From the NCBI GenBank assembly GCA_005879315.1, contig VBLC01000038.1:1-64000 (forward strand): a DNA stretch of 64,000 bases, written 5' to 3'. The translations under genes and the position numbers were made by a program. The notes beneath the pieces are model-generated. The model searched no databases. It was not told the origin of the DNA and saw only the letters and a list, made by a program, of their open reading frames with translations. Below are positions 9,094 through 63,267 of this stretch, piece after piece; the stretch's first letter is position 1; each line of letters begins with the position of its first letter. The stretch is from Deltaproteobacteria bacterium (GTDB lineage: Bacteria > Myxococcota > Myxococcia > Myxococcales > 40CM-4-68-19).

Positions 9094-9113
9094 GCGCGCA
9101 TTATCTTGGCGCG

Positions 9114-13132: not shown

Positions 13133-13176
13133 GACGATTCAGTCTGCCACGACCGCGCCTGCGGCTCCCAAAAGAT

Positions 13177-15495
<2,319 letters not shown>

Positions 15496-44936: not shown

Positions 44937-45040
44937 TTGCCACTCCCCCCTGGGGCAAGCTGCACATGCGCTCACTGCCCTGCAAGGCAATGAACAGGGG
45001 GCCTGGCTGGCCGGATGCAGGGGCACCATCTTCAGCGGCG
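44937..45040. promoter_or_regulatory. divergent promoter region of the polysaccharide locus
   Basis: 104 bp between the divergent starts of the initiating transferase and the WecG-like transferase. Contains the GGGGGGAG ribosome-binding site of the former. No clear hexamers or palindromes are seen. Confidence 0.4.
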
Positions 45041-46486: not shown

Positions 46487-46651
46487 TTGCGACCCCCCGG
46501 CAGGCAGATAGGCACGAAGCGTCCGGCCGGCAACAGGGCGTGCGGGCGATCTGGCGTTCTTCCCGACGGCAACTTTGCGTATTTGTCACCGATGTGTACC
46601 TTGTCACGCGGCGGAGGGATCGAGCGCCGCGTCGGTGAGGGGGGCGGGGAA
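46487..46651. promoter_or_regulatory. divergent intergenic region with direct repeat TTGTCAC
   Basis: 165 bp between the membrane-protein gene and the response-regulator operon. The heptamer TTGTCAC occurs at 46583-46589 and again at 46601-46607, an 18-bp period. It could mark an operator or tandem promoter element. No RNA gene is seen. Confidence 0.4.
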
Positions 46652-47050
46652 ATGGCTGGGCGGAAGACGGTTCTGGTGGTGGAGGACCATCCACCGGTGC
46701 GCAGCGCTATCCGGGAAATGTTCCAGCGGATGGGCTACGACGCCGTGGAGGCGGGCGACGGCACGGCGGCGCTGGCCAGGCTGTCAGGCATGCGCCCGGA
46801 CCTGGTTTGCCTCGACCTGGTCTTGCCCGAATCCTCGGGCTACGAGATCTGCGAATTCATTCGCCGCTCGCCCGAGCATCGCCGGACGCCGGTGTTGATC
46901 ATGAGCGAGCGCGCCTACCCGGAGGACCGCGCCCACGCGGTCGAGGCGGGGGCCAACGATTTCATCGCCAAGCCGTTCAGCGAAGACGACCTGCGCCGCC
47001 GCATCGAGAGCATCCTCGACAAGAACGGCCCCACCGCCCTGGCGTCATGA
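46652..47050 (+). CDS. single-domain response regulator
   Basis: A 132-residue receiver without an output domain. It has the acidic pocket 'VVEDHPPVR', phospho-acceptor Asp (about 54) in 'LVCLDLVLPESSG', the conserved Ser 'LIMSERAY' in the Thr position, and Lys in 'FIAKPFSEDDL'. The stop overlaps the start of the following GT2 gene by ATGA, so the regulator is translated together with a glycosyltransferase. It may act by protein contact on polysaccharide synthesis (inference). Cognate kinase not adjacent. ATG 46652 is preceded by a G-rich stretch. Confidence 0.88.
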   Translation: MAGRKTVLVVEDHPPVRSAIREMFQRMGYDAVEAGDGTAALARLSGMRPDLVCLDLVLPESSGYEICEFIRRSPEHRRTPVLIMSERAYPEDRAHAVEAGANDFIAKPFSEDDLRRRIESILDKNGPTALAS

Positions 47051-48198: not shown

Positions 48199-49778
48199 AG
48201 CTGAGCGTCGTCATCGCCACCTACAACCGGCCGGCGCTCTTGCGGCGGCTGCTCTCGCAGCTCGCCGATCAGACGCTGCCCGCGGAGCAGTACGAAGTGT
48301 GCGCCATCGACGACGGCTCGACCCCACCGGCAGCCGAATCGCTCGCCGATCTTGGGCTGCCCTATGCCCTGCAGCTCTTGCGGCAGGAGAATTCGGGGGC
48401 GGCTTCGGCCCGGCACAGCGGAGTGCGCGCGGCGCGCGGCGAGATTGTCCTCTTCCTCGACGACGACATGCAGATCGGGCGCGACTTCCTCGAGCAGCAC
48501 CTGGCCGCGCACGGCGCGGGGCGCGCGGTCGTGCTCGGCCGCATCAAGGCCGATCCAGGCCTTTCCGGGATGCCGCTCTTCGAGCGCTGGCATTCCTCGT
48601 TGCTCGATCGCAAGGCGGAATCGATCGCTCGCGGAGCGCTCGCGCCGCAGGGCAACCTGCTCTTCACCGGCAATGCTTCCTTGCGCCGCGAGGACTATCT
48701 CGCGGTGGGCGGCTTCGACGGTTCGCTGCCCCATTCGGAGGACGTCGAGCTGGGCCTGCGGCTGGAGAAGGCGGGCGTGCCCTTCCGCTTCTGCGATGGG
48801 GCCTGGACCCTGCACGGCTCCGACCACACCAGCATCGGGAAGTGGCGCAGCCGCGCGCGCCTGTACGGCGATTGCGACCGGCGCATCGCCGGCAAACATC
48901 CAGACCTCCGGCAGGCCAGCCCCTGGCGCTTCGTCTTTGACCTGCATCCTCTGGCGCGGCCCTTCCTGGCTGCGGCCGTTCTCGCTCCGGCGGCGGCCGG
49001 AAAGGCCGTCGGCGCCGGCGTACGCCTTGCCGCCCTGGCCGATCGCGTCGGCCTGCGCCGGGCGGCCCTGGGCAGCACCACGCTCGCCTACGCCATGGAA
49101 TACTTCCGCGGCGTTCGCGAGGCGGCCGGCTCGGCGCCGCAGGCCCTGGAAGAGCTGCTCGACTTCGCCGGCCGGTTCGAGCGGAGCGCCGCGGCCGTCG
49201 CGCTCCTCGCGCTGCGCGAGGACCAGGCAGTCATGCGGAACTACCAGGCGCGCTACGGCCACCTCTCGCCTTCGCGGGGAGACCTCCCCTCGGATGTGCT
49301 GGAGAAGATCGGCCTGCAGATCATGGCCGGCTATCGGCTCATGCGTGCCTTGCGCGACCGCGGCTCGACGTCCGCGGCGAAAGCCGTCTCGCGCTTGATC
49401 CGCCATCTCTACGGCTCCGACATCCACTGGGAGGCGAAGTTCGAGCCAGGCGTGATGCTGGTCCACGGCATGGGCCTCGCCATCAGCGGAGAGGCGCGCG
49501 TGGGCCGCGGCTGCATCCTCTTCCAGCACGTCACGCTGGGGATGGGCATCGATCCGGAGACGCGCCGCCCCGGCGCTCCGTCGCTGGAGCGCAACGTCCA
49601 CGTCGGCCCAGGCGCGACGCTGATCGGGCCGATCACCGTCGGCGAGGGCTCGAAGGTGATGGCCGGCGCCGTGCTGACACGCTCGGTGCCGCCAGGCTCG
49701 CTGGTGGAGACTCCCACTCCCGAAGTCCGCCCGCGCAAGAGCGATGGGCCGCCGCTGCGGGCGGTGCCGGCGGCCTGA
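48195..49778 (+). CDS. GT2 glycosyltransferase fused to a serine-acetyltransferase-like (LbH) domain
   Basis: A 527-residue soluble protein starting at GTG 48195. Residues 1-230 are a GT-A domain: 'KLSVVIATYNRPALLRRLL', 'IDDGS', 'FLDDDMQ' (DxD), 'GNASLRREDYLAVGGFDGSL' and 'EDVELGLRL'. A helical connector (260-400) follows. Residues 400-500 are a left-handed beta-helix of the CysE/SAT type ('IHWEAKFEPGVMLVHGMGL', 'GCILFQHVTLG', 'GPGATLIGPITVGEGSKVMAGAVL'). The tail is Pro/Arg-rich. The arrangement suggests transfer and O-acetylation of a sugar by one polypeptide (inference). Confidence 0.88.
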   Translation: MKLSVVIATYNRPALLRRLLSQLADQTLPAEQYEVCAIDDGSTPPAAESLADLGLPYALQLLRQENSGAASARHSGVRAARGEIVLFLDDDMQIGRDFLEQHLAAHGAGRAVVLGRIKADPGLSGMPLFERWHSSLLDRKAESIARGALAPQGNLLFTGNASLRREDYLAVGGFDGSLPHSEDVELGLRLEKAGVPFRFCDGAWTLHGSDHTSIGKWRSRARLYGDCDRRIAGKHPDLRQASPWRFVFDLHPLARPFLAAAVLAPAAAGKAVGAGVRLAALADRVGLRRAALGSTTLAYAMEYFRGVREAAGSAPQALEELLDFAGRFERSAAAVALLALREDQAVMRNYQARYGHLSPSRGDLPSDVLEKIGLQIMAGYRLMRALRDRGSTSAAKAVSRLIRHLYGSDIHWEAKFEPGVMLVHGMGLAISGEARVGRGCILFQHVTLGMGIDPETRRPGAPSLERNVHVGPGATLIGPITVGEGSKVMAGAVLTRSVPPGSLVETPTPEVRPRKSDGPPLRAVPAA

Positions 49779-49783
49779 ACCCC

Positions 49784-51259
49784 ATGCGGCTGCTCGTCGC
49801 GGGCGCGCTGCTCCTCTCCTGCTGCTCGTGCGTCAAGAAGGCGGCCGCGCAAGGGCCCGTCCCGCTCATCCTCGACTGCCGCAAGCCCGGCCATCGCATC
49901 AGCTCGCTGATCTACGGCGTGGCCCACTCGGAACGCTCCGACCCGCGCCGCGCCGCGCCTTGGGAGCTGGGCGCGACCGCGGTCCGCTGGGGCGGCAACA
50001 GCAGCAGCCGCTACAACTGGGAGCTGGGCAACGCCTGGAATGCCGGCAGCGACTGGTTCTTTCGCAACGTCGACTACAGCGGCAAGCCCGGGCCGGCCTG
50101 GCGCCGCTTTCTCGAAGCGAACCGCGCGCACGGGCTCGCCACCGCCATGACCATCCCCATCCTCGGTCAGGTGGCAAAGGACGCGACTTCGGCGCCGCCG
50201 CAGAAGACGAGCGTCCCCGCGCCGCCGGAGATGATGGCGCGCTGGGTGGAGCAGATCCGCTCGGCCGGCGGCGCCGAACAGTACATCCTCGACAACGAGC
50301 CGATGCTCTGGAACGAGACCCATCGCGACGTGCATCCGCAGCCGGTCGGCTACGACGAGTTGCTCGACCGCACGCTCCGCTACGGCAGCGCCATCCGCCG
50401 CGCCGACCCGCGGGCGGTCATCGCCGGTCCGGCGCTGTGGGGATGGCCGGCGTACTTCTATTCGGCCATCGACAAGGTGGAGGGATTTCGCAGCCACCCC
50501 GATCGCCGTGCGCACGGCGAGGTGCCTTTGCTGCCTTGGTACCTGCGCAAGCTGCGCGAGCATGAGAAGAAGACCGGCGAGCGCATCCTCGACGTCGTCG
50601 ACGTCCATTTCTATCCGCAGGGAAAGGGCATAGGAGTCGATCGTTCCGGAGATATCGATGAAGAGACCGCCGCGCGCCGGGTCCGCAGCGTGCGCGGCCT
50701 CTGGGACCCGAGCTATCGCGACGAGTCGTTCATCGGAGAACCGATCCGGCTCCTTCCGCGGTTGCGCGAATGGATCGATGTGAACTATCCCGGCCGCGGC
50801 ATTTCCATCGGCGAATACAACTTCGGCGCTGACCGGCACATCAGCGGCGGGCTGGCGGTCGCCGAGGCGCTGGGACGATTCGCCGAGGCAGGCATCGTTT
50901 CGGCCTTCTATTGGACCGCGCCGCCCCGCGGGTCGGCCGCTTACTGGGCATTTCGCGCCTATCGCAACTATGACGGCCGGGGCGGCCGCTTCGAGGACAC
51001 TCTCCTGAAAACCGCCTCGCTCGATCGGCTGTCCCTGTTCGCCTCGCTCGGCAAGAGGCGGCTGGTGATCGTCGCGGTGAACGCGCGCGCCGAGTCGCAG
51101 TCGGTCGATCTGCAGCTTTCCGGCTGCGGCGAAAGGGCAACGCTGCGCCAGTTCACGTATGCGGGCGGCGACAAAGGATTCGAAGCCAGCAGCCTGCAGC
51201 AGCCGCAAGCGACGCTGCCGGCGCTCTCGATCTCGGTCATCGAGGTCGGGCTGCGCTGA
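49784..51259 (+). CDS. GH44-family glycoside hydrolase lipoprotein
   Basis: A 491-residue exported enzyme. Signal (1-18) with 'LLSCCSC' is lipobox-like, so probably membrane-anchored. The GH44 signatures are 'AVRWGGNSSSRYNWE' (67-80), acid/base Glu172 in 'YILDNEPMLWNETHRDVHP', 'DVVDVHFYPQG' and nucleophile Glu344 in 'SIGEYNFG'. A beta-sandwich module ends the protein. GH44 enzymes are endo-beta-1,4-glucanases or xyloglucanases. It begins 5 bp after the GT-acetyltransferase gene and so is probably part of the same transcript, which suggests trimming of the exported polymer rather than feeding. Confidence 0.9.
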   Translation: MRLLVAGALLLSCCSCVKKAAAQGPVPLILDCRKPGHRISSLIYGVAHSERSDPRRAAPWELGATAVRWGGNSSSRYNWELGNAWNAGSDWFFRNVDYSGKPGPAWRRFLEANRAHGLATAMTIPILGQVAKDATSAPPQKTSVPAPPEMMARWVEQIRSAGGAEQYILDNEPMLWNETHRDVHPQPVGYDELLDRTLRYGSAIRRADPRAVIAGPALWGWPAYFYSAIDKVEGFRSHPDRRAHGEVPLLPWYLRKLREHEKKTGERILDVVDVHFYPQGKGIGVDRSGDIDEETAARRVRSVRGLWDPSYRDESFIGEPIRLLPRLREWIDVNYPGRGISIGEYNFGADRHISGGLAVAEALGRFAEAGIVSAFYWTAPPRGSAAYWAFRAYRNYDGRGGRFEDTLLKTASLDRLSLFASLGKRRLVIVAVNARAESQSVDLQLSGCGERATLRQFTYAGGDKGFEASSLQQPQATLPALSISVIEVGLR

Positions 51260-51352: not shown

Positions 51353-52741
51353 ATGAGACGGTCTGTGGTTGTGGGCGCGGCCTGCGCGCTGCTCATGGCG
51401 TGCGGTGGTGCGTCCGAAAAAGAGGTCGCGAGTCCTCCGCCAAGCCCGGCGGCCGTGACGATTTCGGTGAGCCCGGCGGCGGTCTCGCTCACTGCAGGTG
51501 CGACGCAGGCGTTCAGCGCCGGGGTCGTTGGCCTGAGCGACATCGCCGTCATCTGGTCGGTGCAGGAAGGCACAGCAGGGGGCGCGATCACTACCGCCGG
51601 CCTGTATACGGCGCCTTCTGCCGCCGGCACCTATCACGTCGTCGCGACCAGCGTGACCGACGCGAGCAAGAGCGCCGCGGCTGCCGTGAGCGTCGCGGCA
51701 AAGGCGCAGTCCGGCACCTGGGTCAGCGGATATTACGTGGGCTACCAGGCCAGCATGTACCCGGCGGCGAAGGTCGACTTCTCCGCCATCACTCATCTGA
51801 TGGTCGGCGCCATCCTGCCCAACGCGGACGGGACGCTCGACAAGTCCTTCTACATCGACGCTGTGAACGGCCCGGCGATGGCGAGAGATCTCGCGACGCG
51901 AGCGCACACCGCGGGCCGCAGGGCCATCCTCATGGTGGGGGGCGCGGGCTCGCTCGCGGGTTGGCAGGGGGCATCCTCCGCCGCGAACCTGTCCGCGTTC
52001 GTGGACAACCTGGTGGGCACGATGCAGAACCTCGAGTACGACGGCCTCGACCTCGACTGGGAACCGATCAGCAGCGCCGACCAGCCCCGCCTGCTCGCGC
52101 TGGTGCAGGCGCTGCGCGCCAAGGTGCCGGGGGCGCTCATCACCATGCCCATCAACTTCGTCATCGGCGCAGCCGATCCCTGGTACGCGCAGGTCGCGCC
52201 GTACCTCGACCAGATGAACATCATGAGCTACGGCATGTCGGACGTCTGGCCCGGCTGGCAGTCGTGGCATTCGGCTGCCTTGAGCGGCGAGTCGTCTTCC
52301 CATCCCAGCTCGGTCTCCTCGAGCGCCAACGCCTTCGCGGCCGCCGGCGTGCCCAAAGGCAAGATCGGAATCGGGATCGGCTTCTATGGCAGCTGCTGGA
52401 GCGGAGTCACCGGCCCGGGGCAGACCATCGGCGCCGGGAAGATCGTGGCGAGCGACAACGTCATGACCTATGCGCATATCAATGCCAGCTATTATTCCGC
52501 CGGCGCCTATCTCTGGGATGACGCCGCGAAGGCCGGATATCTCTCCTTCCCGCAGGCGGCCGGACCGGAGGCGTGCAACTTCGTCTCCTATGAAGACGAC
52601 GCCTCGATCGCGGCCAAGGGTCAGTGGGTCCGGAGCCAGGGATATGGCGGGACCATCATCTGGACGGTCAACGAGGGATACGTCGCGGCGAGCGGCACGA
52701 ATCCGCCGCTCGATTCCGTACGACGCGCGTTCCTGAACTAG
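51353..52741 (+). CDS. GH18-family glycosidase lipoprotein (chitinase-like)
   Basis: A 462-residue lipoprotein. The signal ends at 'LMAC' with Cys17. Residues 33-115 are a bacterial Ig-like (BIG2-like) domain ('ISVSPAAVSLTAGATQAFSA'). Residues 122-460 are a GH18 barrel with full catalytic DxxDxDxE, Asp230, Asp233, Asp235 and Glu237 in 'DGLDLDWEP', plus 'IMSYGM' and a late Trp in 'IIWTVNEGY'. GH18 enzymes cleave beta-1,4-linked GlcNAc-containing chains. Its place in a polysaccharide locus suggests a polymer with amino sugars (inference). The stop overlaps the convergent transferase gene at CTAG. Confidence 0.9.
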   Translation: MRRSVVVGAACALLMACGGASEKEVASPPPSPAAVTISVSPAAVSLTAGATQAFSAGVVGLSDIAVIWSVQEGTAGGAITTAGLYTAPSAAGTYHVVATSVTDASKSAAAAVSVAAKAQSGTWVSGYYVGYQASMYPAAKVDFSAITHLMVGAILPNADGTLDKSFYIDAVNGPAMARDLATRAHTAGRRAILMVGGAGSLAGWQGASSAANLSAFVDNLVGTMQNLEYDGLDLDWEPISSADQPRLLALVQALRAKVPGALITMPINFVIGAADPWYAQVAPYLDQMNIMSYGMSDVWPGWQSWHSAALSGESSSHPSSVSSSANAFAAAGVPKGKIGIGIGFYGSCWSGVTGPGQTIGAGKIVASDNVMTYAHINASYYSAGAYLWDDAAKAGYLSFPQAAGPEACNFVSYEDDASIAAKGQWVRSQGYGGTIIWTVNEGYVAASGTNPPLDSVRRAFLN

Positions 52742-54423
52742 TTGAGGTGGCCCGGCAGGCTCTTCGCCAGCGTCGAGCGATCGAAGTCGAACGGGTGTGG
52801 CTCGCCCATCACCATTCGCCGGATCTTCGCCAGCCGCGGGCTGAAGACGCTCAGGCGCGGCGTCTCGGGATCGTGGATGTCGATTCCCGCCATGTCGGTC
52901 AGGCTATGGAAGAGAACGCGGGTATTGAGCGGCCGGGCGATGTTGGTCGAGGCCGCCGCCACCTTGTCTGGATGGCTGGCGGCGAATTCATCCGAGTACC
53001 AGAAGAGCATCGGGATGGGCAGGTCGTATTCGTTGTTCAGGTAATGCCCATAGAGGCCGCGGCTGTCGTCGCGGAGGTTCTCGCCGTGGTCGGAGACGTA
53101 GAAGAGGGCCTTGATCCCGCGGCGCTGGCGCAAGAGATCGATCAGATCGGCCAGCACGCTGTCGGTATAGGCGATGGTGTTGTCGTAAGCATTGATCAAC
53201 CGCTCTTGCTCGCTCAGGGCGGCGTCGTCGTCCGGGAAGACGTCGAAGCTGCGCGGGTAGCGGCTGGTCAGAGTGAAATGGCTGCCGAGGGTGTGGATGA
53301 CGAAGAACGTCTTGCCCTCGCCCTGGGCAAGCATCTCCTTGACGGTGTCGATCAGCCTGCCATCGAGCCGGCGTTCGTAGAAGCGGGTGACGTCGGCCTC
53401 GCGCGGATAGCGGTTGATCGCGCCGGTGAACGGATCGCGCTCCTGCGTGGAGAGCCAGTAGGTGCGGAAGCCCGCCTCGCGAAAGACGGAGATGATCGAC
53501 TTCTCCCGCGCCGTCCGCTGTTCGTCCTCGATGGTGCCGCGGGTGAGGATGAGCGGCACCGACTTGCGCGTCACCGCCGCCTGGGTGACGACGTCGCGGA
53601 AGACGAGAAGATGATCGGTCTGCGAGAGCCGCGGGTTCGTGCTGCGCGGATAGCCGTAGAGCTGCCAGTTCAACGCGCGCGAGCTCTCGCCGATGACCAG
53701 GAGATAGATCTCCGGCTCCGCGGGCGCATTCGAACGCGTGGCGCCGAAGGAAAATCCCTGCGCCTTTTGCGCATCCCGCAGCGCCTCGCGATAGAGCGTC
53801 CCGGCGGTATAGGCCTGCGGGATGACCCCGAAGGGGCTGCTGCGGTCGTTGGTCGCGACCCACATCCAGAGACCGAGCAGGTGATGGACGCCGACATAGA
53901 CCAGCGCGAGGCCTGCCAGCGGGATCAAGGAAGCGCGCCGCGGAGTGCTCAGCCGGAGATGGCGGATCTTCCACATGCAGAGCGCATACGCGGCCAGCAC
54001 CGCGGCGAGCATCGCCGTCAATGCCTGGGTATGCGACTCGATGTATTCGCGCCCGTCCTCGAGGTTCTCGAAGATGGTCAGCAGCATGCTCGAGGAGAGC
54101 CGCGTGTGATAGTGGAGGATGACGTACAGATCCGCGGCGACGACGAGATAGAGCGGAAACATCAAGGCGTGCGCCACGACGGGCCGCCGCGCGACGAGCT
54201 GTGCCGTCACCAGCGAAAGCACCGAGGCGGAAAAGAGGAAGACAATGGTCTTGTCGGGGCCGCCCTCGCCGACGCGCAGCTCGTAGAGCAGCACCGGCGA
54301 GATCAGATAAAGGTTCATCAGGAGCAGCCAGCGCTGGTGCCAGACCCAGGCGAGCGCTCGCCCGAACGGCCCCTCGCTGGCCGGCGCGGCGACAGAGATC
54401 GCTTGCTCGTGGCCCACGGCCAT
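52738..54423 (-). CDS. phosphoethanolamine-transferase-like membrane sulfatase-fold enzyme
   Basis: A 561-residue enzyme with about five N-terminal membrane helices (30-185) and a periplasmic alkaline-phosphatase/sulfatase-fold domain (235-550). The motifs are 'LLVIGESSRALNWQLYGYPR' (metal Glu), catalytic Thr in 'AAVTRKSVPLILTRG', 'THTLGSHF'-like 'VIHTLGSHFTLTSRYP', and the metal motif 'YVSDHGENL'. This matches EptA/CptA-type enzymes that add phosphoethanolamine to lipid A or polysaccharide. ATG 54423 follows a G-run overlapping the start. Its neighbours suggest it decorates the secreted glycan. Confidence 0.88.
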   Translation of the reverse strand: MAVGHEQAISVAAPASEGPFGRALAWVWHQRWLLLMNLYLISPVLLYELRVGEGGPDKTIVFLFSASVLSLVTAQLVARRPVVAHALMFPLYLVVAADLYVILHYHTRLSSSMLLTIFENLEDGREYIESHTQALTAMLAAVLAAYALCMWKIRHLRLSTPRRASLIPLAGLALVYVGVHHLLGLWMWVATNDRSSPFGVIPQAYTAGTLYREALRDAQKAQGFSFGATRSNAPAEPEIYLLVIGESSRALNWQLYGYPRSTNPRLSQTDHLLVFRDVVTQAAVTRKSVPLILTRGTIEDEQRTAREKSIISVFREAGFRTYWLSTQERDPFTGAINRYPREADVTRFYERRLDGRLIDTVKEMLAQGEGKTFFVIHTLGSHFTLTSRYPRSFDVFPDDDAALSEQERLINAYDNTIAYTDSVLADLIDLLRQRRGIKALFYVSDHGENLRDDSRGLYGHYLNNEYDLPIPMLFWYSDEFAASHPDKVAAASTNIARPLNTRVLFHSLTDMAGIDIHDPETPRLSVFSPRLAKIRRMVMGEPHPFDFDRSTLAKSLPGHLN

Positions 54424-54479
54424 CCCCCCTCGCGCCGATCTGGTGACTGCTCGATTGGGGAGCAAGGGGCCGCAACAAA

Positions 54480-55226
54480 TCAGAAACGGCCATCGCCGAG
54501 CACTCGCGTCCGCAGCGCATGGAGAGCAATGTGCACTGCCGTCTCCTTCCACCGCCTTCGCCCGTCGACGGCGAAGCGCGGCAGCACCGACCCGGCGCGC
54601 CGCTCGCGCGGATGGAAGGGCCGCGGCTCGGTGGACCAGATGAAGAACTCGCCCAGCGAGCGCAGCTCGTCGACGTGGTCCGCGGAAAAGTCCACGCCCG
54701 GAACGCCGAAGGGCATGGCGAAGTGGAGCTGCGGCCCGAAGAGCCGCTCGAAGTCTCGCTGCGAGCTGGAGAGCTCCTCGAGGACGTCGTCGGGGGACAA
54801 GAGCGAAAGCCGCCGGTGCGTGTTGGTGTGGTTGCCGAGCGACGCGTTGGGCAGCCGCCCGATCTCGAGGCATCGCTCGATCTCCGCCAACTCCGGCTCG
54901 GCGCGCTGCTCGGTCTTCTGCGGGCAGACGAAGTAGAGCCATTCGATCTGCGGCCAGCGCTGCGCTCGCGAGAGCAGGTAGTCCGCCGCGCTCTGATAGC
55001 CGTCGTCGAAAGAGACGGTGAGCTCCCCGCGCGCCTCGAGACAAAAGGCGATCAGCCGGTCGATCTCCGCAGAGGGCATGCAGAGCTTGTCTCGCTCCGG
55101 GCCGACGCGATGGAAGCAGAGCGCCAGCTGCAGATCCCCGAGGCCCGTGCGCAGGCTGGAGAGCAGGGTGCCCTCGTTTGCGGCGGACAGCGTCTTGAGC
55201 AATTGCCGTCCCAATCGCTGCCTCAT
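54480..55226 (-). CDS. NodB-like polysaccharide deacetylase (CE4)
   Basis: A 248-residue protein with the CE4 fold. 'LCFHRVGPE' leads to metal and catalytic 'VSFDDGYQS' (Asp-Asp) at about 70-78 and the His motif 'LGNHTNTHRRL' (HxxxH). 'FAMPFGVPG' provides the third motif. There is no signal peptide, so a cytoplasmic role or a peripheral location at the inner membrane is likely. It removes acetyl groups from N-acetyl hexosamines in related enzymes. It starts about 60 bp from the divergent Wzx gene. Confidence 0.85.
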   Translation of the reverse strand: MRQRLGRQLLKTLSAANEGTLLSSLRTGLGDLQLALCFHRVGPERDKLCMPSAEIDRLIAFCLEARGELTVSFDDGYQSAADYLLSRAQRWPQIEWLYFVCPQKTEQRAEPELAEIERCLEIGRLPNASLGNHTNTHRRLSLLSPDDVLEELSSSQRDFERLFGPQLHFAMPFGVPGVDFSADHVDELRSLGEFFIWSTEPRPFHPRERRAGSVLPRFAVDGRRRWKETAVHIALHALRTRVLGDGRF

Positions 55227-55320
55227 GCGCGCAAGATTAGGGAGTAGACGCTACAGCCGCATTGTCTGATTTCCGGCAACCCGCATGCTTCGCTTTGGGC
55301 CGTGGATAACTTGGCGCGTG

Positions 55321-56820
55321 ATGTCGGACACGTCCTCGCTGGCCGCCAGCTCGACGCTGTGGCGGGACACGCAGATCGCGCTGTGGAACGCGCTGAAGAT
55401 CGGCGGCTCGCTGCTCGCCACCTGGACGGTGGCGGTAGCGGTGCGCTTCGTGCTGCCCAGGCTGCTCGGGCCCGAGGGGTACGGCGTCTACAACTTCACC
55501 GAGGCCTTCGCGACCAGCTTCTTCGTGCTCGCTTCGCTCGGCATCGAGACCTACGTCCAGAAGGAGATCCCGGTCCGGGCCGAGCACGCCTCGGACTTCT
55601 TCGGCGGGGTGCTGACGCTGCGGCTGGCTTTGGGCGTCGCGCTGTTCGCGGCGATGGCCGCCATCCTCCATTTCGGCGGGCGGCCCCCGCAAGTGAGGCT
55701 GATGGTCTATCTCTTCGCCGTCGGCCAGCTGCTTTTCCTCAGCAACGCGACCTTCTCCGCGATGCTCCACGCCCGCGGCACCGTCGACGGCCTATCGGTG
55801 GTCACGGTGCTCGCCAAGCTTCTCTGGGGCGCGGGGATCCTCGCCGCGCTCACCAGCCGCACGGGGCTGATCGGCCTCGCCGCGGCCTTCGCGCTCGCCG
55901 AGGCGGTCAAGGCGGCCGCGCTCTTCTCCCTCTGCCGCCGCCATCTCGCCTTGCGGCTGCACATCGATCTCGCCCAGACGAAGCGCGTGGTGATCTCCAG
56001 CCTGCCCTTCTTCGTCACCACCTTGACCACCACGCTGTTCAGCAAGCTCGACGACACGCTGGTCGGTTTTCTCGCCAGCGACCGCGAGGTGGGCTGGTTC
56101 GGAGTCGCCTCGAATCTCTCGCAGGTCGCCCTTCTCATGACGCCGTTGATCGGATCGGTGGTGCTGCCGCTTTTCTCGCGGGTGGCGACCCGCTCGCGCG
56201 CCGAGCTGGACAACGTCATGCGCCGCTCCCTCGAGGTCATTCTCATGATCGCCATCCCCGCCAGCCTGGCGCTGGGCCTCGGAGCGGACGTCTGGGTCCG
56301 GATCGTGGGCGGACCCGACTACGCGCCGGCCGCGCTCGCACTGCGCATCCTCGCGCCGGTCTTCGTCCTCACCTACGTGGCGATGATCTGCGCCGACTGC
56401 CTGTACGTCGAGGGCAAGTCGTGGCGGGTCACCTGGGTCTGCCTGGGCGGCCTCGTCATCAACGTCACCCTCAACGCCACGCTCATCCGCCCGATGCTGG
56501 CGGCGCTCGGTCCCGGCGGGGCGGGCGTGGGCGCGGCGGTGGCCACCATCGGCACCGAGGCGTTCACTTGTTGCCTCTTCACGCTCGCCATCGGCCGGCG
56601 CGTGCTGGACAGGCGGCTCGTCTCGACCGTCGCGCGGCTTGCGGCGGTGTGCGCCGCCGTCTTCGTGCTCCACCGGCTCTGCGCTTTCCTCGGTCCGGCG
56701 CGGCTCGCGCTCGACGCGGCCGCCTACGCCGGGCTCGCGCTCCTGACCGGCGCGGTGCGCGTCGGCGAGATCCGCGAGTTCGCTTCCAGCGCGCTCAAGG
56801 TCAAGCAGTCGACAGCATAG
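55321..56820 (+). CDS. Wzx-type oligosaccharide flippase
   Basis: About 499 residues (start ATG 55321; an in-frame ATG at 55285 would add 12) with 12-14 transmembrane helices of the MATE/MOP-flippase class. Segments such as 'RFVLPRLLGPEGYGVYNFTEA' (PST-family hallmark 'LGPExYGxY'), 'SSLPFFVTTLTTTLFSKLDDTLVGFLA' and 'YAPAALALRILAPVFVLTYV' are typical. It turns the undecaprenyl-linked repeat unit to the periplasmic face, upstream of Wzy polymerisation. The Wza lipoprotein gene follows 36 bp later, same strand. Confidence 0.9.
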   Translation: MSDTSSLAASSTLWRDTQIALWNALKIGGSLLATWTVAVAVRFVLPRLLGPEGYGVYNFTEAFATSFFVLASLGIETYVQKEIPVRAEHASDFFGGVLTLRLALGVALFAAMAAILHFGGRPPQVRLMVYLFAVGQLLFLSNATFSAMLHARGTVDGLSVVTVLAKLLWGAGILAALTSRTGLIGLAAAFALAEAVKAAALFSLCRRHLALRLHIDLAQTKRVVISSLPFFVTTLTTTLFSKLDDTLVGFLASDREVGWFGVASNLSQVALLMTPLIGSVVLPLFSRVATRSRAELDNVMRRSLEVILMIAIPASLALGLGADVWVRIVGGPDYAPAALALRILAPVFVLTYVAMICADCLYVEGKSWRVTWVCLGGLVINVTLNATLIRPMLAALGPGGAGVGAAVATIGTEAFTCCLFTLAIGRRVLDRRLVSTVARLAAVCAAVFVLHRLCAFLGPARLALDAAAYAGLALLTGAVRVGEIREFASSALKVKQSTA

Positions 56821-56856: not shown

Positions 56857-57438
56857 ATGCGAGCAGCCCTCATTGCGATGGTCGCCCTGGCCGCCGGATG
56901 CCGGCACTCCGGCGCTTATGTCTGGGCCGATGAATTCAACGACCCGCCGCGATCGGCCGATTACCAGATCGCCGCGGGCGACTTGCTTTCCATCCGCGTG
57001 GTCGGCCACGAGGAAATGTCCACTCGTGTGCGGGTGCGCACCGACGGCCGCATCTCGGTGCCCTTCCTGCAGGACGAGAACGCCGCGGGCGTCACGCCGG
57101 GCGCGCTCGCCGACAAGCTGCGCGACGACTTCACCCAGTACGTCAACCGGCCGGTCGTGACCGTTTCCGTCGAGGAATTCAAGCCGCTCACCGTCTCGGT
57201 GACGGGCGAGGTGATGCGCCCCGGCGTCTATCCTCTCGACACGCCCGCCGGCATCTTGCAGGCGCTGGCCAGCGCGGGCGGGCTGAGCCAGTTCGCGCAC
57301 GACGACCAGATCTACGTGCTCCGCCGCCTGACCGAAGGCACCGTGCGCATCCGCTTCAAGTACGAAGCGCTGGCGCACGCCGAGGGGCGCGCCGGCAACT
57401 TCAGCCTCCAGCGCAACGACCTGGTGGTGGTGGAGTAG
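56857..57438 (+). CDS. short Wza-type polysaccharide export lipoprotein
   Basis: A 193-residue lipoprotein. Signal with lipobox 'LAAGC' (Cys15), polysaccharide biosynthesis/export domain (about 36-110, 'YQIAAGDLLSIRVVGHEEM', 'RTDGRISVPFLQ') and one SLBB domain (113-165, 'LTVSVTGEVMRPGVYPL'). It stops there. The second SLBB repeats and the outer-membrane-spanning helix of E. coli Wza are absent, so it cannot itself form the outer-membrane pore. The next gene, a beta-barrel, begins 2 bp after the stop. This agrees with the myxobacterial scheme of truncated Wza plus separate Wzp barrel. Confidence 0.88.
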   Translation: MRAALIAMVALAAGCRHSGAYVWADEFNDPPRSADYQIAAGDLLSIRVVGHEEMSTRVRVRTDGRISVPFLQDENAAGVTPGALADKLRDDFTQYVNRPVVTVSVEEFKPLTVSVTGEVMRPGVYPLDTPAGILQALASAGGLSQFAHDDQIYVLRRLTEGTVRIRFKYEALAHAEGRAGNFSLQRNDLVVVE

Positions 57439-57440
57439 CG

Positions 57441-58562
57441 GTGGCCTTCCTCCTGCTCCTCGGACTGCTCGCTGCCGGGGCGCGCCTGGAGGCGAGCGTG
57501 GAGAGCGGCGGAGACCTGCGCTCCGCTCTCTCGGGCGAGGACGAGCAGCGGACGGCGCAGATGCTCGTCGTCGAGCCCGCGCTCAGCGCATTTCTCGAGG
57601 AGCCCGGCGCGCAGCTCCAGGCGCGCTACGCGCCGCGCTTCTGGTTTGGCGACGTGCACGGCGTGCGGCAGGAGGGCTCGTTCCTCGGCAAGTGGCAGGC
57701 AACGCGCAATCTGGCATGGGCCGCGACGCAGCGGCTGCGGTACGGGCGCAGCGAGTTCACCTGGGACCCGGGCTCGCGGCGGCCTTTCGACGTGCTGGAG
57801 GCGCTCCTGCCGGTCATCCCCGACGAGCTGAGCAACGACAGCGAGGTGAGCTTCAGCTACCTCCTGAGCCGCAACGTTTCGGTCTACGCGGGCGGCGGAT
57901 TCCTCGCCTTCGGCGGGCTCTCGCCGGCGTCGCAGCAGATCCTCCCCTTGCAGCGCGGCCCGCAGACCTACGCCGGGGTCGAGCAGCAGCTGACCCGGGT
58001 CGACAGGCTCTCGACGGCGCTCTACGCCTCGCACAGCTTCATCACCGGCGGCCGGCAGAATTCGCTCCTGGAAGTGACCGAGGGCTGGCAGCGCCAGCTC
58101 GGGTCCGCCACGCGCACGAGGCTCGCCGCGGGCGGCAGCGCAGTTCGCAAGTCTCGGCCCCAGGACGTGTCGAAGGATCTCTTTCCCGTCGCCTCGGTCT
58201 CGCTCGATCACGACCTGCTCGCGCGCGCGCAGCGTCTGGAATTGCGCGCGCTCGCCGAATTGGGCCCGCACCAGAGCCGGCTGACGGGGGATCTGCTCGA
58301 GCGCGCGGAGGTGGGCGCCTCGGCGCGCTGGGTGATGGAGGAAAATTTTTCCCTCCGCTGCCGCGGCGCGTTCGCCAAGGAGATGGGTGGGGCGCGGCTC
58401 ATGCTCGGAACGCTCGATGCCGTCTACCGCCTGCGGCCGGACATTTCCTTCCTCGCCGGTGCCGAGGCGCTGTTGCAGGAATTGCCGGCGCAGACGGACA
58501 CAGGGCGCCTGCACTGGATGGCGTTCACCGCACTGAAGCTGACGATGCCCGGCTCACTTTGA
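57441..58562 (+). CDS. outer-membrane beta-barrel, Wzp-like polysaccharide secretin
   Basis: A 373-residue exported protein starting at GTG 57441, 2 bp after the Wza stop. A hydrophobic signal (1-18) is followed by alternating short amphipathic strands ('GAQLQARYAPRFWFGD', 'NVSVYAGGGFLAFGGL', 'SATRTRLAAGGSAV', 'ASARWVMEENFSLRCRGAFAK', 'LHWMAFTALKLTMP') that end in a terminal strand. This is the pattern of a barrel of about 16-18 strands. Context next to a pore-less Wza suggests the outer-membrane conduit for the polymer (family knowledge: Wzp barrels of Myxococcus). Sequence identity to those was not tested. Confidence 0.78.
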   Translation: MAFLLLLGLLAAGARLEASVESGGDLRSALSGEDEQRTAQMLVVEPALSAFLEEPGAQLQARYAPRFWFGDVHGVRQEGSFLGKWQATRNLAWAATQRLRYGRSEFTWDPGSRRPFDVLEALLPVIPDELSNDSEVSFSYLLSRNVSVYAGGGFLAFGGLSPASQQILPLQRGPQTYAGVEQQLTRVDRLSTALYASHSFITGGRQNSLLEVTEGWQRQLGSATRTRLAAGGSAVRKSRPQDVSKDLFPVASVSLDHDLLARAQRLELRALAELGPHQSRLTGDLLERAEVGASARWVMEENFSLRCRGAFAKEMGGARLMLGTLDAVYRLRPDISFLAGAEALLQELPAQTDTGRLHWMAFTALKLTMPGSL

Positions 58563-58567
58563 GACAT

Positions 58568-58735
58568 ATGGCCAGCCTGCTCCTGCTCTCCATACTTGCA
58601 GCCACGGTCCTGATGCCTAGCTTGGCCGCGGGGGAGAGGAATGCTGAGCGCGGACTGAAGAAGCTGTTCGTCCAGATGCTGGCGTTCAGCATCTTCTATT
58701 GGCTGGTGGTGATGTACTTCACACCGGGCGTTTGA
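58568..58735 (+). CDS. 55-residue putative membrane protein
   Basis: A small ORF missed by length cut-offs. It begins at ATG 58568, 5 bp after the barrel stop, and ends 16 bp before the Wzc-like start. The product reads as a hydrophobic segment (2-20, 'LLLLSILAATVLMPSLAAG'), a short basic hinge (ERNAERGLKKL) and a second helix (36-51). It would be a bitopic or hairpin inner-membrane protein. No family is recognised. Tight packing within the export operon argues for a real role at the Wza/Wzc complex (inference). Confidence 0.6.
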   Translation: MASLLLLSILAATVLMPSLAAGERNAERGLKKLFVQMLAFSIFYWLVVMYFTPGV

Positions 58736-58751
58736 GGGGGAGGGGAAGCAG

Positions 58752-60179
58752 ATGGGCGGACAGTCGGCCCGGCACAATTCAGCCGCGACGGCTTCTGCGC
58801 TGGACACGGCGCTCTTCGAGCCCGGCGAGCTGCGCGACTACCTCGGCTTCGCGTTGAACGCGATGGGGCGGCGGCGCAAGCTGGTCATGGCGGTGCTGCT
58901 CCTCTTCATGGGCGCGACTGTCGGGGCGATGAAGGTGCTGCCGCGGCAGTTTCATGCCGAGGCGCGGCTCTACACGATGCCGGCCGAAGGCTCTCCCGGC
59001 GCTCTGCGCGCCGCGAGCGGCGAGCCGGCGGGGCTCGTCCCCGGCGCGGCTGAAGTGATTCTCACCGAAGAGAGCCTCAAGGCGCTCGTCGCCGAGCACG
59101 ATCTGATGACGCGCTGGGTGTCTTCGCGCGCGCCGCTGTGGAAGCTGATCGATCACCTGCGCGACATGCGCGGCGAGGCTCCCGACGCGCAGGCCCGCGA
59201 CCGCGCGCTGATCGACTACCTGCGCAAGAAGCTCAGCGTGCAGGTGAAGGGCGCCGAGGTGCACATCGCTTTCGACTGGCCCGAGCCGCGCACCGCCTAT
59301 GCGGTGGTGCAGAGCGCCTCGCAGCGGCTGCTCGCGGCGCGGCGCGAGGCCGAGCTGGGTCCGCTGCAGAGCAAGTCCGCCTCGCTGGAGGAGAGCGCGC
59401 GGGCCGCCCGGAAGCGGATCGACATCGCGGTGGCGGGCATCGACGCCGCCATCGAGGAGCGGCACCGCGGCGCGCGGCCGGCGACGGTGCGCGGGCTGCA
59501 GGCCGAGGGAATCTTCCGCGACCTGCCCGATCAGAAGCTGGCGCAGCTGCGGCAGCAGCTGCTCACGCGGCAGAAGGCCATCGCCGACGCCGAGCAGATG
59601 CGACGCAAGCGGCTCTCCGAGCTGCAGTCGATCCGGGCCGAGCAGCGGGCCACGCTCGGTCCGCAGAACGCCGCGCTGCTCGACACCGAGGAGAAGATCG
59701 CCGTCCTCGAGCGCGAGGGCGCGCAGATCGACGGCATGAAGTCGGAGGAACAGGCGCTGCTCGCCGAGTACGTTCGCGCGGGCGGCAAGGAAGTCGAGCT
59801 TCTCTCGGAGCCCGGCCCGTCCTGGCCGGCGGAGCTGAAGGAGGACGACCAGGTCGTCGCCTCCGCAAAGGTGCGCGTCGCGATGGAGCAGGCGTCGCTG
59901 CAGCGCCTGCTCGACGAGATTACGGAACTGCGTGTCTCGCTCGCCGCTGCGCGCTCGAGCTTCGAGAGCCGCCATGCCGTCCTCACGCCGCCCGAGATCC
60001 CCCAGCGGGTCGCCTTCCCCAACTTGCCGCTGGTGCTGGTCGCCGCTGCGTTCGGCGGGATCCTGCTCGCCATCTTCGGCGCCCTCGCCGCCGACCTGCG
60101 CGGCGGAGTCATCCGCGAGACCTGGCAGGCGCAGCGCAGGCTGGACCTGCCGGTGCTGGCCGAGGTTCCCGCGCCGTGA
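58752..60179 (+). CDS. Wzc-like polysaccharide co-polymerase lacking a kinase domain
   Basis: A 475-residue PCP-type protein. TM1 at about 44-60 and TM2 at about 427-450 enclose a large periplasmic, helical domain rich in coiled coil (180-415). N- and C-terminal flanks are typical Wzz-type elements ('LPRQFHAEARLYTM', then 'PEIPQRVAFPNLPLVLV'). The protein ends at 'LAEVPAP', exactly where a BY-kinase linker would start. No Walker motifs or tyrosine tail follow. The next but one gene supplies only a degenerate kinase half. It should set chain length and gate Wza. GTGA overlap with the Wzy gene. Confidence 0.85.
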   Translation: MGGQSARHNSAATASALDTALFEPGELRDYLGFALNAMGRRRKLVMAVLLLFMGATVGAMKVLPRQFHAEARLYTMPAEGSPGALRAASGEPAGLVPGAAEVILTEESLKALVAEHDLMTRWVSSRAPLWKLIDHLRDMRGEAPDAQARDRALIDYLRKKLSVQVKGAEVHIAFDWPEPRTAYAVVQSASQRLLAARREAELGPLQSKSASLEESARAARKRIDIAVAGIDAAIEERHRGARPATVRGLQAEGIFRDLPDQKLAQLRQQLLTRQKAIADAEQMRRKRLSELQSIRAEQRATLGPQNAALLDTEEKIAVLEREGAQIDGMKSEEQALLAEYVRAGGKEVELLSEPGPSWPAELKEDDQVVASAKVRVAMEQASLQRLLDEITELRVSLAAARSSFESRHAVLTPPEIPQRVAFPNLPLVLVAAAFGGILLAIFGALAADLRGGVIRETWQAQRRLDLPVLAEVPAP

Positions 60180-61645
60180 GCCGGACAGTTTTCTTGGCAG
60201 GGCTCTGCGCGCTCGGCGCGCTGAGCCTCTTGGCGTTGCTCGTCTCGGGCGGCTCGCCCGCCGCTGCGGCGGCGCCGGTGCTGGGGCTGGCGCTGCTCTG
60301 GGCCGCCTGGCGCGCCCCGCTCAAAGCCACGCTGGTCGCCTTCATGTTCCTCTCGCTCATCGCCGTCGCGCTGCAGGACAACCCGCACGAATTCTACTGG
60401 CGCTCGCCCTTGCAGGGCCTGGGCGCGCTGCTCAGCGACAACTGGAGCAGGACTTTCGGGATCCCGATCCTCTCCTTCTCGGGAAGCGACGTGCTCGCGG
60501 CGCTCTTGCTTCTGCGCATCGCCATGCGCGGCGGCGCGGGGGGCACCGCCTTTGTGCTGTGGAGAGTGTTGGGCGCATTTCTCGCCGGTCTTGCGGGGCT
60601 GGCGATCTGGGGCGCGGCGCACGGAGGGCAGCTCGGCATCGCCTACTGGCAGGTGCGCCAGCTGGTCTACATCCCCGTCTTCGCCTTTCTCCTCGCCCAG
60701 GCGCTGGACGGCGAAGGCGATCTGCGTCTCCTCGGGCCGATCGTGATCGCCGCGGCTTTGGTCAAGGCGGTGCTCGGCCTCTACTTCTACCTGGCCATCG
60801 CGCGGCGGCAGGGGCTGGAGATTTCGTTCGTCACCTCGCACGCCGATTCGATGCTCTTCTGCCTCTCCATCGTCCTCATGCTCCTGCGCTGGCTCGAGCA
60901 GCCCGACGCCAAGAGCCTGCGCCGGTTCCTCTGGATCGCGCCGGTCCTGCTCGCCGCCATCTGGCTCAACAACCGGCGCATCGCCTGGGTGGAGCTGGCC
61001 GTGGGCCTCGCTCTGGTCTGGCAGCTCGCGCGCTGGAACGCCGCCAAGCGCGCCGCCGCCCGCGCCGCGCTGGTCTGCGCGCCGCTCTTTGCCCTCTACC
61101 TCGCCGCCGGCTGGTACTCGAGCGCCGCCTTCTTCAAGCCGGTCGTCTCGATCAAGACCATCGTCGCTCCGAGCGCCTCCGCGCGGGACAGCTCGTCGCA
61201 GTCGCGCCGGATCGAGAATTTCAATCTCTCGCAGACGCTGCGGGCGCATCCTCTGGGCATCGGCCTGGGCCAGCCCTACGAGGAGATCGTCAAGGGGCCC
61301 GACATCTCCGAAGGGTTCGCCCTCTACCGCTACATTCCGCACAACTCCATTCTCTGGATGATGGCGGCCGGCGGACCCATCGGCTTCTTCCTGCTCTGGG
61401 CGCCGTTCGCCGTCGGGATGTTCCTCGCGGTGCGCGCCAGGCGGCTGGCGCGCTCGCCGATCGAGCGCATCTCGGCCATCGCCGCTGTCTGCGCCCTCGT
61501 CGTCTATCTCATCCAGGCCTACGGCGACATGGGCACGCAAAACTGGGCAACCACCTGGCTGGTCGCGGCCGCGCTCGCGGTCGCCGGCAAGGTCGCCGTC
61601 GCAACCGAAACAGTGGAGGAGGACGTATGCACAGCGCTCGCCTGA
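60176..61645 (+). CDS. Wzy/O-antigen-ligase-like polymerase
   Basis: A 489-residue membrane protein starting at GTG 60176, which overlaps the Wzc stop. About 11-13 transmembrane helices surround a large periplasmic loop around residues 325-390 ('SSSQSRRIENFNLSQTL', 'HPLGIGLGQPYEE', 'YIPHNSILWMMA'), the arrangement of the Wzy_C/WaaL family. The 'HPLGIGLG' and 'HNSILWMM' elements contain the His and Arg residues used in periplasmic glycan transfer. It probably polymerises the Wzx-flipped repeat units. Its 3' end overlaps the kinase-remnant gene by 19 bp. Confidence 0.9.
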   Translation: MSRTVFLAGLCALGALSLLALLVSGGSPAAAAAPVLGLALLWAAWRAPLKATLVAFMFLSLIAVALQDNPHEFYWRSPLQGLGALLSDNWSRTFGIPILSFSGSDVLAALLLLRIAMRGGAGGTAFVLWRVLGAFLAGLAGLAIWGAAHGGQLGIAYWQVRQLVYIPVFAFLLAQALDGEGDLRLLGPIVIAAALVKAVLGLYFYLAIARRQGLEISFVTSHADSMLFCLSIVLMLLRWLEQPDAKSLRRFLWIAPVLLAAIWLNNRRIAWVELAVGLALVWQLARWNAAKRAAARAALVCAPLFALYLAAGWYSSAAFFKPVVSIKTIVAPSASARDSSSQSRRIENFNLSQTLRAHPLGIGLGQPYEEIVKGPDISEGFALYRYIPHNSILWMMAAGGPIGFFLLWAPFAVGMFLAVRARRLARSPIERISAIAAVCALVVYLIQAYGDMGTQNWATTWLVAAALAVAGKVAVATETVEEDVCTALA

Positions 61646-62118
61646 TCGATGTCGCCGTCGCTTCCGAAGAGCAGGCGGCGCCCGCCGTCTCGCGCGAGAT
61701 GCAGGAGCTTTGGTTCGCCATCGCCGACCGCGCCTGGTCTTCGCTGCTGCTGGTGCCTTCCGGGACGGTCGAGGTCCTGGCGCTCGCCGCCGGTCTCTGC
61801 GAAGTGAGCTACCAGACGGCGTCGCCTCGGCCGGTGGCGCTGCTCGATGCCAGCGGCGCTTCCCTCGAGCAAGCGGCAGCGCTCGCTCGCCAGCTCGCCC
61901 TTCGCGTCGCGCGCGACGAGCGCGTGCTCGTCGTGGTCGATCCGGTCCGCGACAATCCCGCCGCGCTCACCTTGGGCTCGCGCTGCGACAAGGCCCTGCT
62001 CTGCGTCCGCCTGGGGCAATCCGATCTGCCGTCGTCCCAGGAAACCCTCGAGCGCTGCGGCCGCGATCGTTTCCTCGGGACCGTCGTCCTCCGGCCTTGC
62101 AAACCCTCCAGGCGATGA
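61627..62118 (+). CDS. degenerate BY-kinase (CpsD/CapB-like) lacking Walker A
   Basis: A 163-residue P-loop-like protein. It keeps the fold's landmarks, 'VSREMQELWFAIADRAW' (compare the 'FRxLRTNL' helix of BY-kinases), Walker A' as 'RPVALLDAS' and C-terminal 'GSRCDKALLCVRLG', 'RDRFLGTVVL'. The Walker A position reads 'LVPSGTVEV' with no GKS/GKT, and no tyrosine cluster follows. It therefore looks unable to bind ATP or autophosphorylate. It pairs with the kinase-less Wzc two genes upstream, with a Wzy gene between. A regulatory pseudo-kinase subunit is the best reading; decay is the alternative. Confidence 0.7.
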   Translation: MHSARLIDVAVASEEQAAPAVSREMQELWFAIADRAWSSLLLVPSGTVEVLALAAGLCEVSYQTASPRPVALLDASGASLEQAAALARQLALRVARDERVLVVVDPVRDNPAALTLGSRCDKALLCVRLGQSDLPSSQETLERCGRDRFLGTVVLRPCKPSRR

Positions 62119-62154
62119 ACAGATCGCTTGGCAGCATTCCCGAGGGGGAAGCAA

Positions 62155-63267
62155 ATGAGGGGCATGCTGCGTAATTGGGGCTTGATTCTGGGTGTCGTGC
62201 TGGGCTGCGGCAGGAGCGCGCCGAACGTCAGTCCGAATTCTTCGGAATTGCTCTTCGAGGGCAGATTCGACACCAGCGCCGGCGCGCCGCGCTTGGAGTG
62301 GCCGGGCAGCGCCATCTGGCTGCGCTTCAACGGCACCGGGGCCAGAGTGATCCTCGGCGAGCATTCGCTCGAGCTCGACGAATACGGGCAGCAGGCGCAC
62401 GACTGGTTCGAAGTGACAGTGGACGGGCACGCCGCAGCGCCGCTCAAGACGACCGAGGGCACCGGCACCTATCTGCTGGCCTCGGGGCTCCCTGCCGGCG
62501 AGCACCAGATCGTCTTGCGCAAGCGGACCGAAGCCTTCGTCGGCGAGGCGCAGCTGCATGGCTTCGACATTGACCCTGGCTCCTCGCTCTTGCCAGTCGA
62601 GGCGCCCGGCCGCCGTATCGAATTCATCGGCGATTCCATCGCCGCTGGCTTCGGCATCGACGGGGCCGGACCCAATTGCCTCTTCTCCGCCGAGACCGAG
62701 AACTACTCAGAAACCTATGCGGCGCTCACGGCGCAGGCCCTGGGAGCGCAGCACATGGTCATCGCGGCTTCCGGCGCGGGCGTCTATCGCAACTGGGGCG
62801 GCAGCACCTCGAACACCATCGGCGACCTCTACGGGCGGACCTTGCCCACCGACCCGAGCACCCGCTGGGACTTCTCCCGCTGGACGCCGGACGTCGTCGT
62901 CATCAACGTCGGCACCAGCGATTTCACCTCTGGCGACCCCGGCCGCGACGCCTTCGTCGGCGCCTATCGCAAGCTGGTCGCGCAGGTGCGGCAGAACTAT
63001 CCATCGGCGCTGATCGCAATCGCGGTGGGCCCGATGCTCAGCGACCTCTGGCCCGCCGGCGCGCGCGCGCTCACCCAGGGCCGCTCCTACGTCGCCGATC
63101 TGACCGCGCAACTGGTCCAGGCGGGCGACACGCGCATCAAGCTGATCGAGTTCCCCAACCAGGACCATGCGGGAACGTTCGGCTGCAAGTCGCACCCGAG
63201 CGCCGCCACGCAGCGGCAGATGGGCGAACAGCTCACTGCCTTCCTGCGCCAGCAGCTGGGGTGGTGA
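62155..63267 (+). CDS. CE2-type acetylesterase/SGNH hydrolase lipoprotein
   Basis: A 370-residue lipoprotein (lipobox 'VVLGC', Cys18). A GAGGGGGAA ribosome-binding site precedes ATG 62155. Residues 32-145 are a beta-sandwich and 150-368 an SGNH hydrolase, the two-domain order of CE2 acetylesterases. Catalytic Ser161 is in 'FIGDSIAAGFG'; His347 is in 'KSHPSAATQ'. The usual block-III GTND reads GTSD (253-256), so the oxyanion-hole Asn is a Ser, which may alter activity. It follows the export genes and probably removes acetyl groups from the secreted polymer (inference). Overlaps the convergent transporter by 35 bp. Confidence 0.83.
   Translation: MRGMLRNWGLILGVVLGCGRSAPNVSPNSSELLFEGRFDTSAGAPRLEWPGSAIWLRFNGTGARVILGEHSLELDEYGQQAHDWFEVTVDGHAAAPLKTTEGTGTYLLASGLPAGEHQIVLRKRTEAFVGEAQLHGFDIDPGSSLLPVEAPGRRIEFIGDSIAAGFGIDGAGPNCLFSAETENYSETYAALTAQALGAQHMVIAASGAGVYRNWGGSTSNTIGDLYGRTLPTDPSTRWDFSRWTPDVVVINVGTSDFTSGDPGRDAFVGAYRKLVAQVRQNYPSALIAIAVGPMLSDLWPAGARALTQGRSYVADLTAQLVQAGDTRIKLIEFPNQDHAGTFGCKSHPSAATQRQMGEQLTAFLRQQLGW

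Follow-up and report, generated by a model that had tools for sequence, protein, structure and literature searches.

The closest described counterpart of the locus reported here is the exopolysaccharide (EPS) pathway of Myxococcus xanthus. The pairing of a short outer-membrane polysaccharide export (OPX) protein, EpsY, with a beta-barrel, EpsX, was published in 2022 (PMC9601211), and the OPX classes and the barrel Wzp are treated in PMC9603273. VpsN and VpsM of Vibrio cholerae are a named OPX/barrel couple of that kind (PMC9601211). The kinase-less polysaccharide co-polymerase (PCP) EpsV and the pseudokinase EcpK were published in 2025 (PMC12004946). According to that account, EcpK is required for EPS in M. 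xanthus and carries Glu at positions 52, 59 and 131, the last 25 residues of EpsV are modelled in a groove of EcpK, and the EPS genes lie in two clusters with 18 genes between them. The locus considered here occupies positions 56857-62118 (+ strand) of a 64,000-nucleotide stretch, the window, from contig VBLC01000038.1 of an uncultured myxobacterial genome (GCA_005879315.1).

A preliminary description of the sequence had proposed a compact six-gene export module at these positions, and all six frames are real and stand in the order first given. They encode a short EpsY-like OPX protein (193 aa, 56857-57438; NCBIfam EpsY E=1.3e-63), an EpsX/Wzp-like outer-membrane beta-barrel candidate (373 aa, 57441-58562), a 55-aa protein of a conserved unnamed family (58568-58735), a kinase-less EpsV-like PCP (475 aa, 58752-60179; NCBIfam EpsV E=9.9e-64), a Wzy polymerase (489 aa, 60176-61645; NCBIfam Wzy_EPS E=2.9e-102) and an EcpK-type bacterial tyrosine (BY) pseudokinase (163 aa, 61627-62118). 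The starts of the 55-aa, Wzy and kinase-like frames were chosen by us within longer frames. Intergenic gaps in the run are 2, 5 and 16 bases, and the overlaps are 4 and 19 bases. The gene for a Wzx flippase (55285-56820, + strand; Pfam Polysacc_synt; NCBIfam Wzx_EPS E=4.7e-122) lies immediately upstream, just beyond the range first given.

The M. xanthus EPS model is the best NCBIfam match for nine proteins of the window (Wzx, OPX, barrel, PCP, Wzy, EpsZ, EpsA, EpsB and EpsW); M. xanthus entered the comparison through these models and through published descriptions. No EPS-pathway model in NCBIfam matched the 55-aa or the kinase-like protein. Pfam matches over the cut-off were obtained for the OPX (Poly_export and SLBB), Wzx and Wzy (Wzy_C), and matches below it for the PCP (Wzz) and for the 55-aa and kinase-like proteins; the Pfam scan of the barrel candidate gave no match. 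The synteny check proposed with the preliminary description supports the assignment, as the order opx-barrel-mini-pcp-wzy, where mini is the 55-aa gene, is found again in distantly related genomes of the phylum; phpt and wzx often precede it, and pk often follows. The locus would thus be a compact homologue of the M. xanthus eps locus, a Wzx/Wzy exopolysaccharide pathway with a barrel pore and a pseudokinase, and we put the probability of this reading at about 0.93. Gene content, profile-based family resemblance, synteny, conservation and the lack of any intact BY-kinase that could be seen were observed directly here; the OPX-barrel and EcpK-EpsV interactions would carry over by analogy from the M. 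xanthus papers.

Several observations weigh against this reading. None of the nine M. xanthus EPS models reaches its equivalog cut-off (EpsY 214 against 320, EpsV 215.6 against 800, Wzy 342.8 against 670, EpsZ 639.9 against 800), and the EpsZ-like protein passes only broader NCBIfam models such as EPS_sugtrans. Therefore, the locus is a homologous but divergent eps locus and its proteins are not certified equivalogs. The barrel is the weakest family match, with 59.5 bits for EpsX against a cut-off of 550. Its structure model, made with the window protein and three homologues (L133-L135), has a mean predicted local distance difference test score (pLDDT) of 43.4 and is mostly strands but unreliable, and the single-sequence model of the pseudokinase (pLDDT 44.3) is unusable. 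Since both models are poor, both folds rest on homology. A second EcpK-like copy in one genome (L042 in G007; one of the 18 sequences in alignment A1) has EGKS at the P-loop place, though with no leading glycine, and the first copy in that genome is without EGKS. One further EcpK-family sequence has GKT, but elsewhere than the P-loop place. Loss of the lysine is therefore not universal across the wider EcpK family. Alignment A1 excluded L046, L049, L052, L059 (mis-trimmed), L040 and near-duplicates. Finally, for this organism the pathway is a prediction from its genes.

The OPX protein contains a Poly_export domain at residues 32-105 and an SLBB domain at 113-163 (SLBB_2 to 192), and it ends at residue 193. 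This corresponds to the short D1D2 class, with PES and SLBB domains, no C-terminal outer-membrane helix and a length of at most 280 aa. Because the protein stops at the SLBB domain, there is no room for the Wza pore helix. The OPX is thus predicted to be unable to span the outer membrane by itself, as the preliminary description had argued for a truncated Wza, and the adjacent barrel would be its expected partner. A composite translocon of this type is expected to have, no more than five genes away from the short OPX gene, a gene for an 18-stranded barrel of the outer membrane. Here the candidate gene follows the OPX gene directly, a position kept in relatives; this synteny, together with the match to the EpsX model (E=2.4e-16), is the basis for its assignment as a barrel. 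The earlier claim of a barrel directly after the OPX therefore stands for position and family but not for the fold, which the structure model did not confirm.

The 55-aa protein has two hydrophobic segments joined by a charged link. A profile built from seven sequences matches 104 of the 195 phylum genomes, with a single copy in 101 of them. The protein is found in 102 of the 118 PCP-encoding genomes and also in two genomes that gave no PCP match. Its neighbours were surveyed at 46 loci from 45 genomes, three of which (L116-L118) were excluded because they are cut by a contig end; a neighbour is the next same-strand gene among nine families searched, and other genes, e.g. epsW, may intervene. 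The downstream neighbour is the PCP gene or wzy in 42 of the 43 testable loci, L120 being the exception. The PCP gene lies within 700 bases in 35 of these, including a few partial PCPs or PCP-Wzy fusions, and wzy lies within 150 bases in the other seven, where the PCP gene is divergent, elsewhere or outside the stretch. The gene also has dN < dS (nonsynonymous and synonymous divergence) in 24 of 24 pairs compared. Position and conservation suggest that the protein may belong to the PCP/Wzy polymerase as an extra component.

The M. xanthus counterpart of this gene probably lies between epsX and epsW and would then be MXAN_7419. The gene epsX is MXAN_7418 and primer names give epsW as 7420 (PMC12802240), and three genomes of genus g24 have the barrel gene, the mini gene and then, 541 to 553 bases further on, the PCP gene, an interval able to hold epsW. 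A search of the literature library for MXAN_7419 gave no paper, and one on the small protein listed nothing relevant.

Alternatively, the 55-aa frame could be open by chance or conserved by accident, with no product that works with the PCP and Wzy. It is below the usual annotation length, has no Pfam or NCBIfam family over the cut-off, and gives no match in 16 of the 118 PCP-encoding genomes. However, its mostly single-copy occurrence across the phylum, the uniform excess of dS over dN, and its place before the PCP gene or wzy, including the seven loci where it stays with wzy and the PCP gene is not the neighbour, make an accidental frame improbable.

The PCP matches EpsV over residues 21-472 of 475 and has no kinase domain. 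Its hydropathy profile has two hydrophobic segments, at about residues 42-64 and 420-454; the kinase-less Wzc of the preliminary description is thereby upheld. The C-terminal cytoplasmic tail is about 25 residues long (60102-60176, approximate limits) and free of tyrosine. In alignment A5, the ten sequences whose genomes encode EcpK, including that of the window, all carry a WQ segment and, after it, a hydrophobic strand (LPVLAE, for example); two relatives of the window's genus have no WQ segment.

Tails could be read for all PCP-encoding genomes but G137 (117 of 118), and a genome was scored positive if at least one of its PCP tails shows WQ. All 109 EcpK-encoding genomes with a readable tail are positive; four genomes with weak EcpK matches and no PCP (G019, G025, G028 and G163) fall outside this count. 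In the eight genomes with no detectable EcpK, WQ is absent in four, of which three (G001, G002 and G003) belong to one genus and one (G041) to another family. The EcpK profile search of G001-G003 gave nothing better than E 0.07, and the assembly of G002 is only 61% complete. These three relatives have opx, barrel, mini, pcp and wzy, and two of their three stretches also contain wzx. The other four genomes (G011, G080, G115 and G135) kept WQ despite having no detectable EcpK. Their assemblies consist of 800 to 1240 contigs and two are only 78 and 88% complete; therefore, EcpK may simply be missed there. The Fisher test of the association between WQ and EcpK ignores kinship, and the independent evidence amounts to two losses. 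We propose that the WQ tail may be the docking site of EcpK.

Some PCP arrangements differ from that of the window. In one genome (L177 in G132) the co-polymerase has two tandem WQ tails, and the same genome has two EcpK-type matches. The PCP (G041, L105/L168) or an N-terminal part of it (L102 in G096, L103 in G117, L119 in G137) shares one frame with Wzy in four genomes, with the 55-aa gene directly upstream.

The genome assembly (4.43 Mb, 125 contigs, 97.55% complete) holds two Poly_export genes, both short, and two Wzz matches, i.e. two PCPs, both without a kinase domain. Searches of it showed neither a complete Wza or Wzc nor an intact BY-kinase. The locus does not match a canonical Wza/Wzc capsule system, which would have a full Wza with a pore helix and a Wzc with an active kinase; these were the two proteins whose presence elsewhere the preliminary description had set against its own claim. 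The sole PF01451 match, considered as a low-molecular-weight phosphatase of the Wzb type, was rejected since it sits beside ArsR- and aquaporin-like frames (labels assigned by eye) and looks like an arsenate reductase.

The second export system is XrtA-like and lies on contig C81 (L037, about 9050-14887, - strand). It comprises a short OPX, a 396-aa protein in the place of the barrel, a kinase-less PCP, a BY-kinase-like protein and a sugar transferase. The BY-kinase-like protein has GEGV in place of GEGK, so that the Walker A lysine is Val, and its Walker A' and B motifs are recognisable. This lysine is Val or Thr in seven of seven aligned genomes of the window's family (own genome included), and GEGK is kept in the other 23 aligned, all of family f4. 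Within the window's family, G009 and G011 gave a weaker match only (G009 in a 744-aa frame), and no match at E 1e-20 was obtained in G002-G004.

A tyrosine kinase encoded elsewhere could in principle phosphorylate the window PCP. The C81 protein with its recognisable motifs would be the candidate, and a further gene could have been missed in an assembly of this completeness. However, Val replaces the Walker A lysine in the C81 protein. The BY-kinase family TIGR01007 has three further hits in the genome, four in all; each of the three contains a P-loop, but two look ParA-like and one Mrp-like (labels assigned by eye). The PCP tail also offers no tyrosine. We consider such a kinase improbable. 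The lack of a visible intact BY-kinase in the genome fits regulation without tyrosine phosphorylation.

The kinase-like protein of the locus lacks the P-loop lysine and a tyrosine tail, and its single Tyr is Y62. A single-sequence search (E up to 0.01) finds homologues in 107 of 146 relatives, and a profile (E up to 0.001) finds them in 116 of 195 phylum genomes, the own genome and some weak matches being counted in both. GK[ST] is absent from all 30 EcpK-type homologues extracted (window included; 29 distinct). The gene is under purifying selection in two genera, with a median dN/dS of 0.24 in g24 (28 pairs, highest 0.53) and of 0.21 in g22 (27 of 28 pairs, one with dS <=0.05 being excluded). 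EcpK and an EpsV-type PCP occur together in 110 of the 195 genomes, the PCP only in 8, EcpK only in 6 and neither in 71; four of the six are the weak profile matches named above. Of the three Glu positions of EcpK, the window protein shares only 59. An indirect link to EcpK comes from genus g24, where four of the 15 homologues checked (L018, L024, L031 and L034) have Glu at raw positions 52, 59 and 131. Among the remaining 11, one has two of these residues and ten lack all three at the raw positions, in most cases owing to a shift in numbering. Searched against the PDB, the profile of the pseudokinase alignment produced weak matches only, the best (E 0.003) being a designed-repeat-like entry.

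Because of its wide occurrence and purifying selection, the kinase-like gene is read as a conserved partner and not a remnant. The preliminary description was right about a separate, seemingly inactive BY-kinase-like protein, but "remnant" does not fit a conserved pseudokinase. That the gene is a decaying relic of an ancestral BY-kinase in a system now unregulated is improbable: the P-loop lysine and tyrosine tail are both missing and three same-genus relatives show no such gene, but it matches in most phylum genomes, is under purifying selection in two genera, co-occurs with the PCP, is always accompanied by the WQ tail where that tail was read, and has a counterpart needed for EPS in M. xanthus (PMC12004946).

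With the locus read as an eps homologue, the EpsZ-type enzyme would start the repeat unit and the glycosyltransferases would lengthen it. Wzx would flip the unit and Wzy would polymerise it, with the EpsV-like PCP setting up polymerisation and bridging the periplasm. The short OPX would cap the PCP and the EpsX-like barrel would be the pore across the outer membrane. The EcpK-type pseudokinase may bind the cytoplasmic tail of the PCP as a scaffold instead of a tyrosine kinase, and the 55-aa membrane protein is proposed to be associated with the PCP and Wzy as one more polymerase component. The co-polymerase is likely to function without being phosphorylated on tyrosine, in line with the shift of regulation suggested earlier. 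We lean slightly towards a combined proposal, in which the 55-aa two-helix protein is an undescribed PCP-Wzy subunit of myxobacterial EPS pathways, widespread in the phylum, and the WQ...LPVL.E tail is a docking code for EcpK, such that lineages dropping EcpK also drop the tail and keep the rest of the export operon intact with no kinase-like partner.

Other genes of the window also resemble parts of an EPS pathway. An EpsZ-type initiating phosphoglycosyl transferase is encoded on the - strand (43554-45029; NCBIfam EPS_EpsZ E=2e-192; Pfam Bac_transf). On the + strand are an EpsA-type WecG/TagA glycosyltransferase (44966-45790; EPS_EpsA E=7.8e-86), a frame with an EpsW-type single receiver domain (46121-47050; EpsW E=5e-37, residues 181-303), two family 2 glycosyltransferase frames (46807-48198 and 47208-49778; Pfam Glyco_tranf_2_3 / Glycos_transf_2) and an EpsB-type GH44 glycoside hydrolase (49784-51259; EPS_EpsB E=1.5e-178). 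The true start of the EpsW-type frame must be downstream, near frame residue 180, and the two glycosyltransferase frames overlap in their upstream parts. A GH18 glycoside hydrolase gene (51353-52741) adjoins the EpsB-like gene. An EptA-like phosphoethanolamine transferase/sulfatase and a polysaccharide deacetylase are encoded at 52738-55226 on the - strand, opposite to the export genes. A CE2-type carbohydrate esterase gene (62128-63267) lies directly 3' of the pseudokinase gene, and a relative without ecpK (L135) has a similar esterase-type gene directly 3' of wzy, the likeness being judged by eye.

The preliminary description had read the locus as a complete alternative secretion system; the system is not a new one but is of the published M. 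xanthus EPS type (PMC9601211, PMC9603273, PMC12004946). This known mode of export dispenses with a Wza pore and with tyrosine phosphorylation, and the locus extends it to a divergent lineage of uncultured myxobacteria. Beyond the published system are the 55-aa family, the co-occurrence of the WQ tail with EcpK and the lysine-less C81 kinase-like protein. The greater interest may lie in the 55-aa membrane protein as a candidate overlooked part, kept widely beside polymerase genes, and in the natural co-loss of EcpK and the tail, which suggests where on the co-polymerase the pseudokinase may take hold.

RmpD is a small protein. In Klebsiella it interacts with the Wzc co-polymerase (PMC10294653), a possible functional parallel to the 55-aa protein for which homology is not claimed. 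HfsA/HfsB of the Caulobacter holdfast can be set beside the locus through the description in PMC12004946 only. The helix-less OPX class with the Wzp porin (PMC9603273) likewise has a truncated OPX with an adjacent barrel gene, but the barrel fold here is without good model support. The M. xanthus EPS pathway (EpsZ, Wzx, EpsY, EpsX, EpsW, EpsV, Wzy and EcpK; PMC7484181, PMC9601211, PMC12004946, PMC12802240) has the same components by profile. Both have a helix-less short OPX, a barrel gene (here a candidate) beside the OPX gene, a kinase-less PCP and a pseudokinase without a P-loop lysine or tyrosine tail. Unlike in M. xanthus, the genes here form one compact run that includes the PCP gene, with ecpK overlapping the 3' end of wzy.

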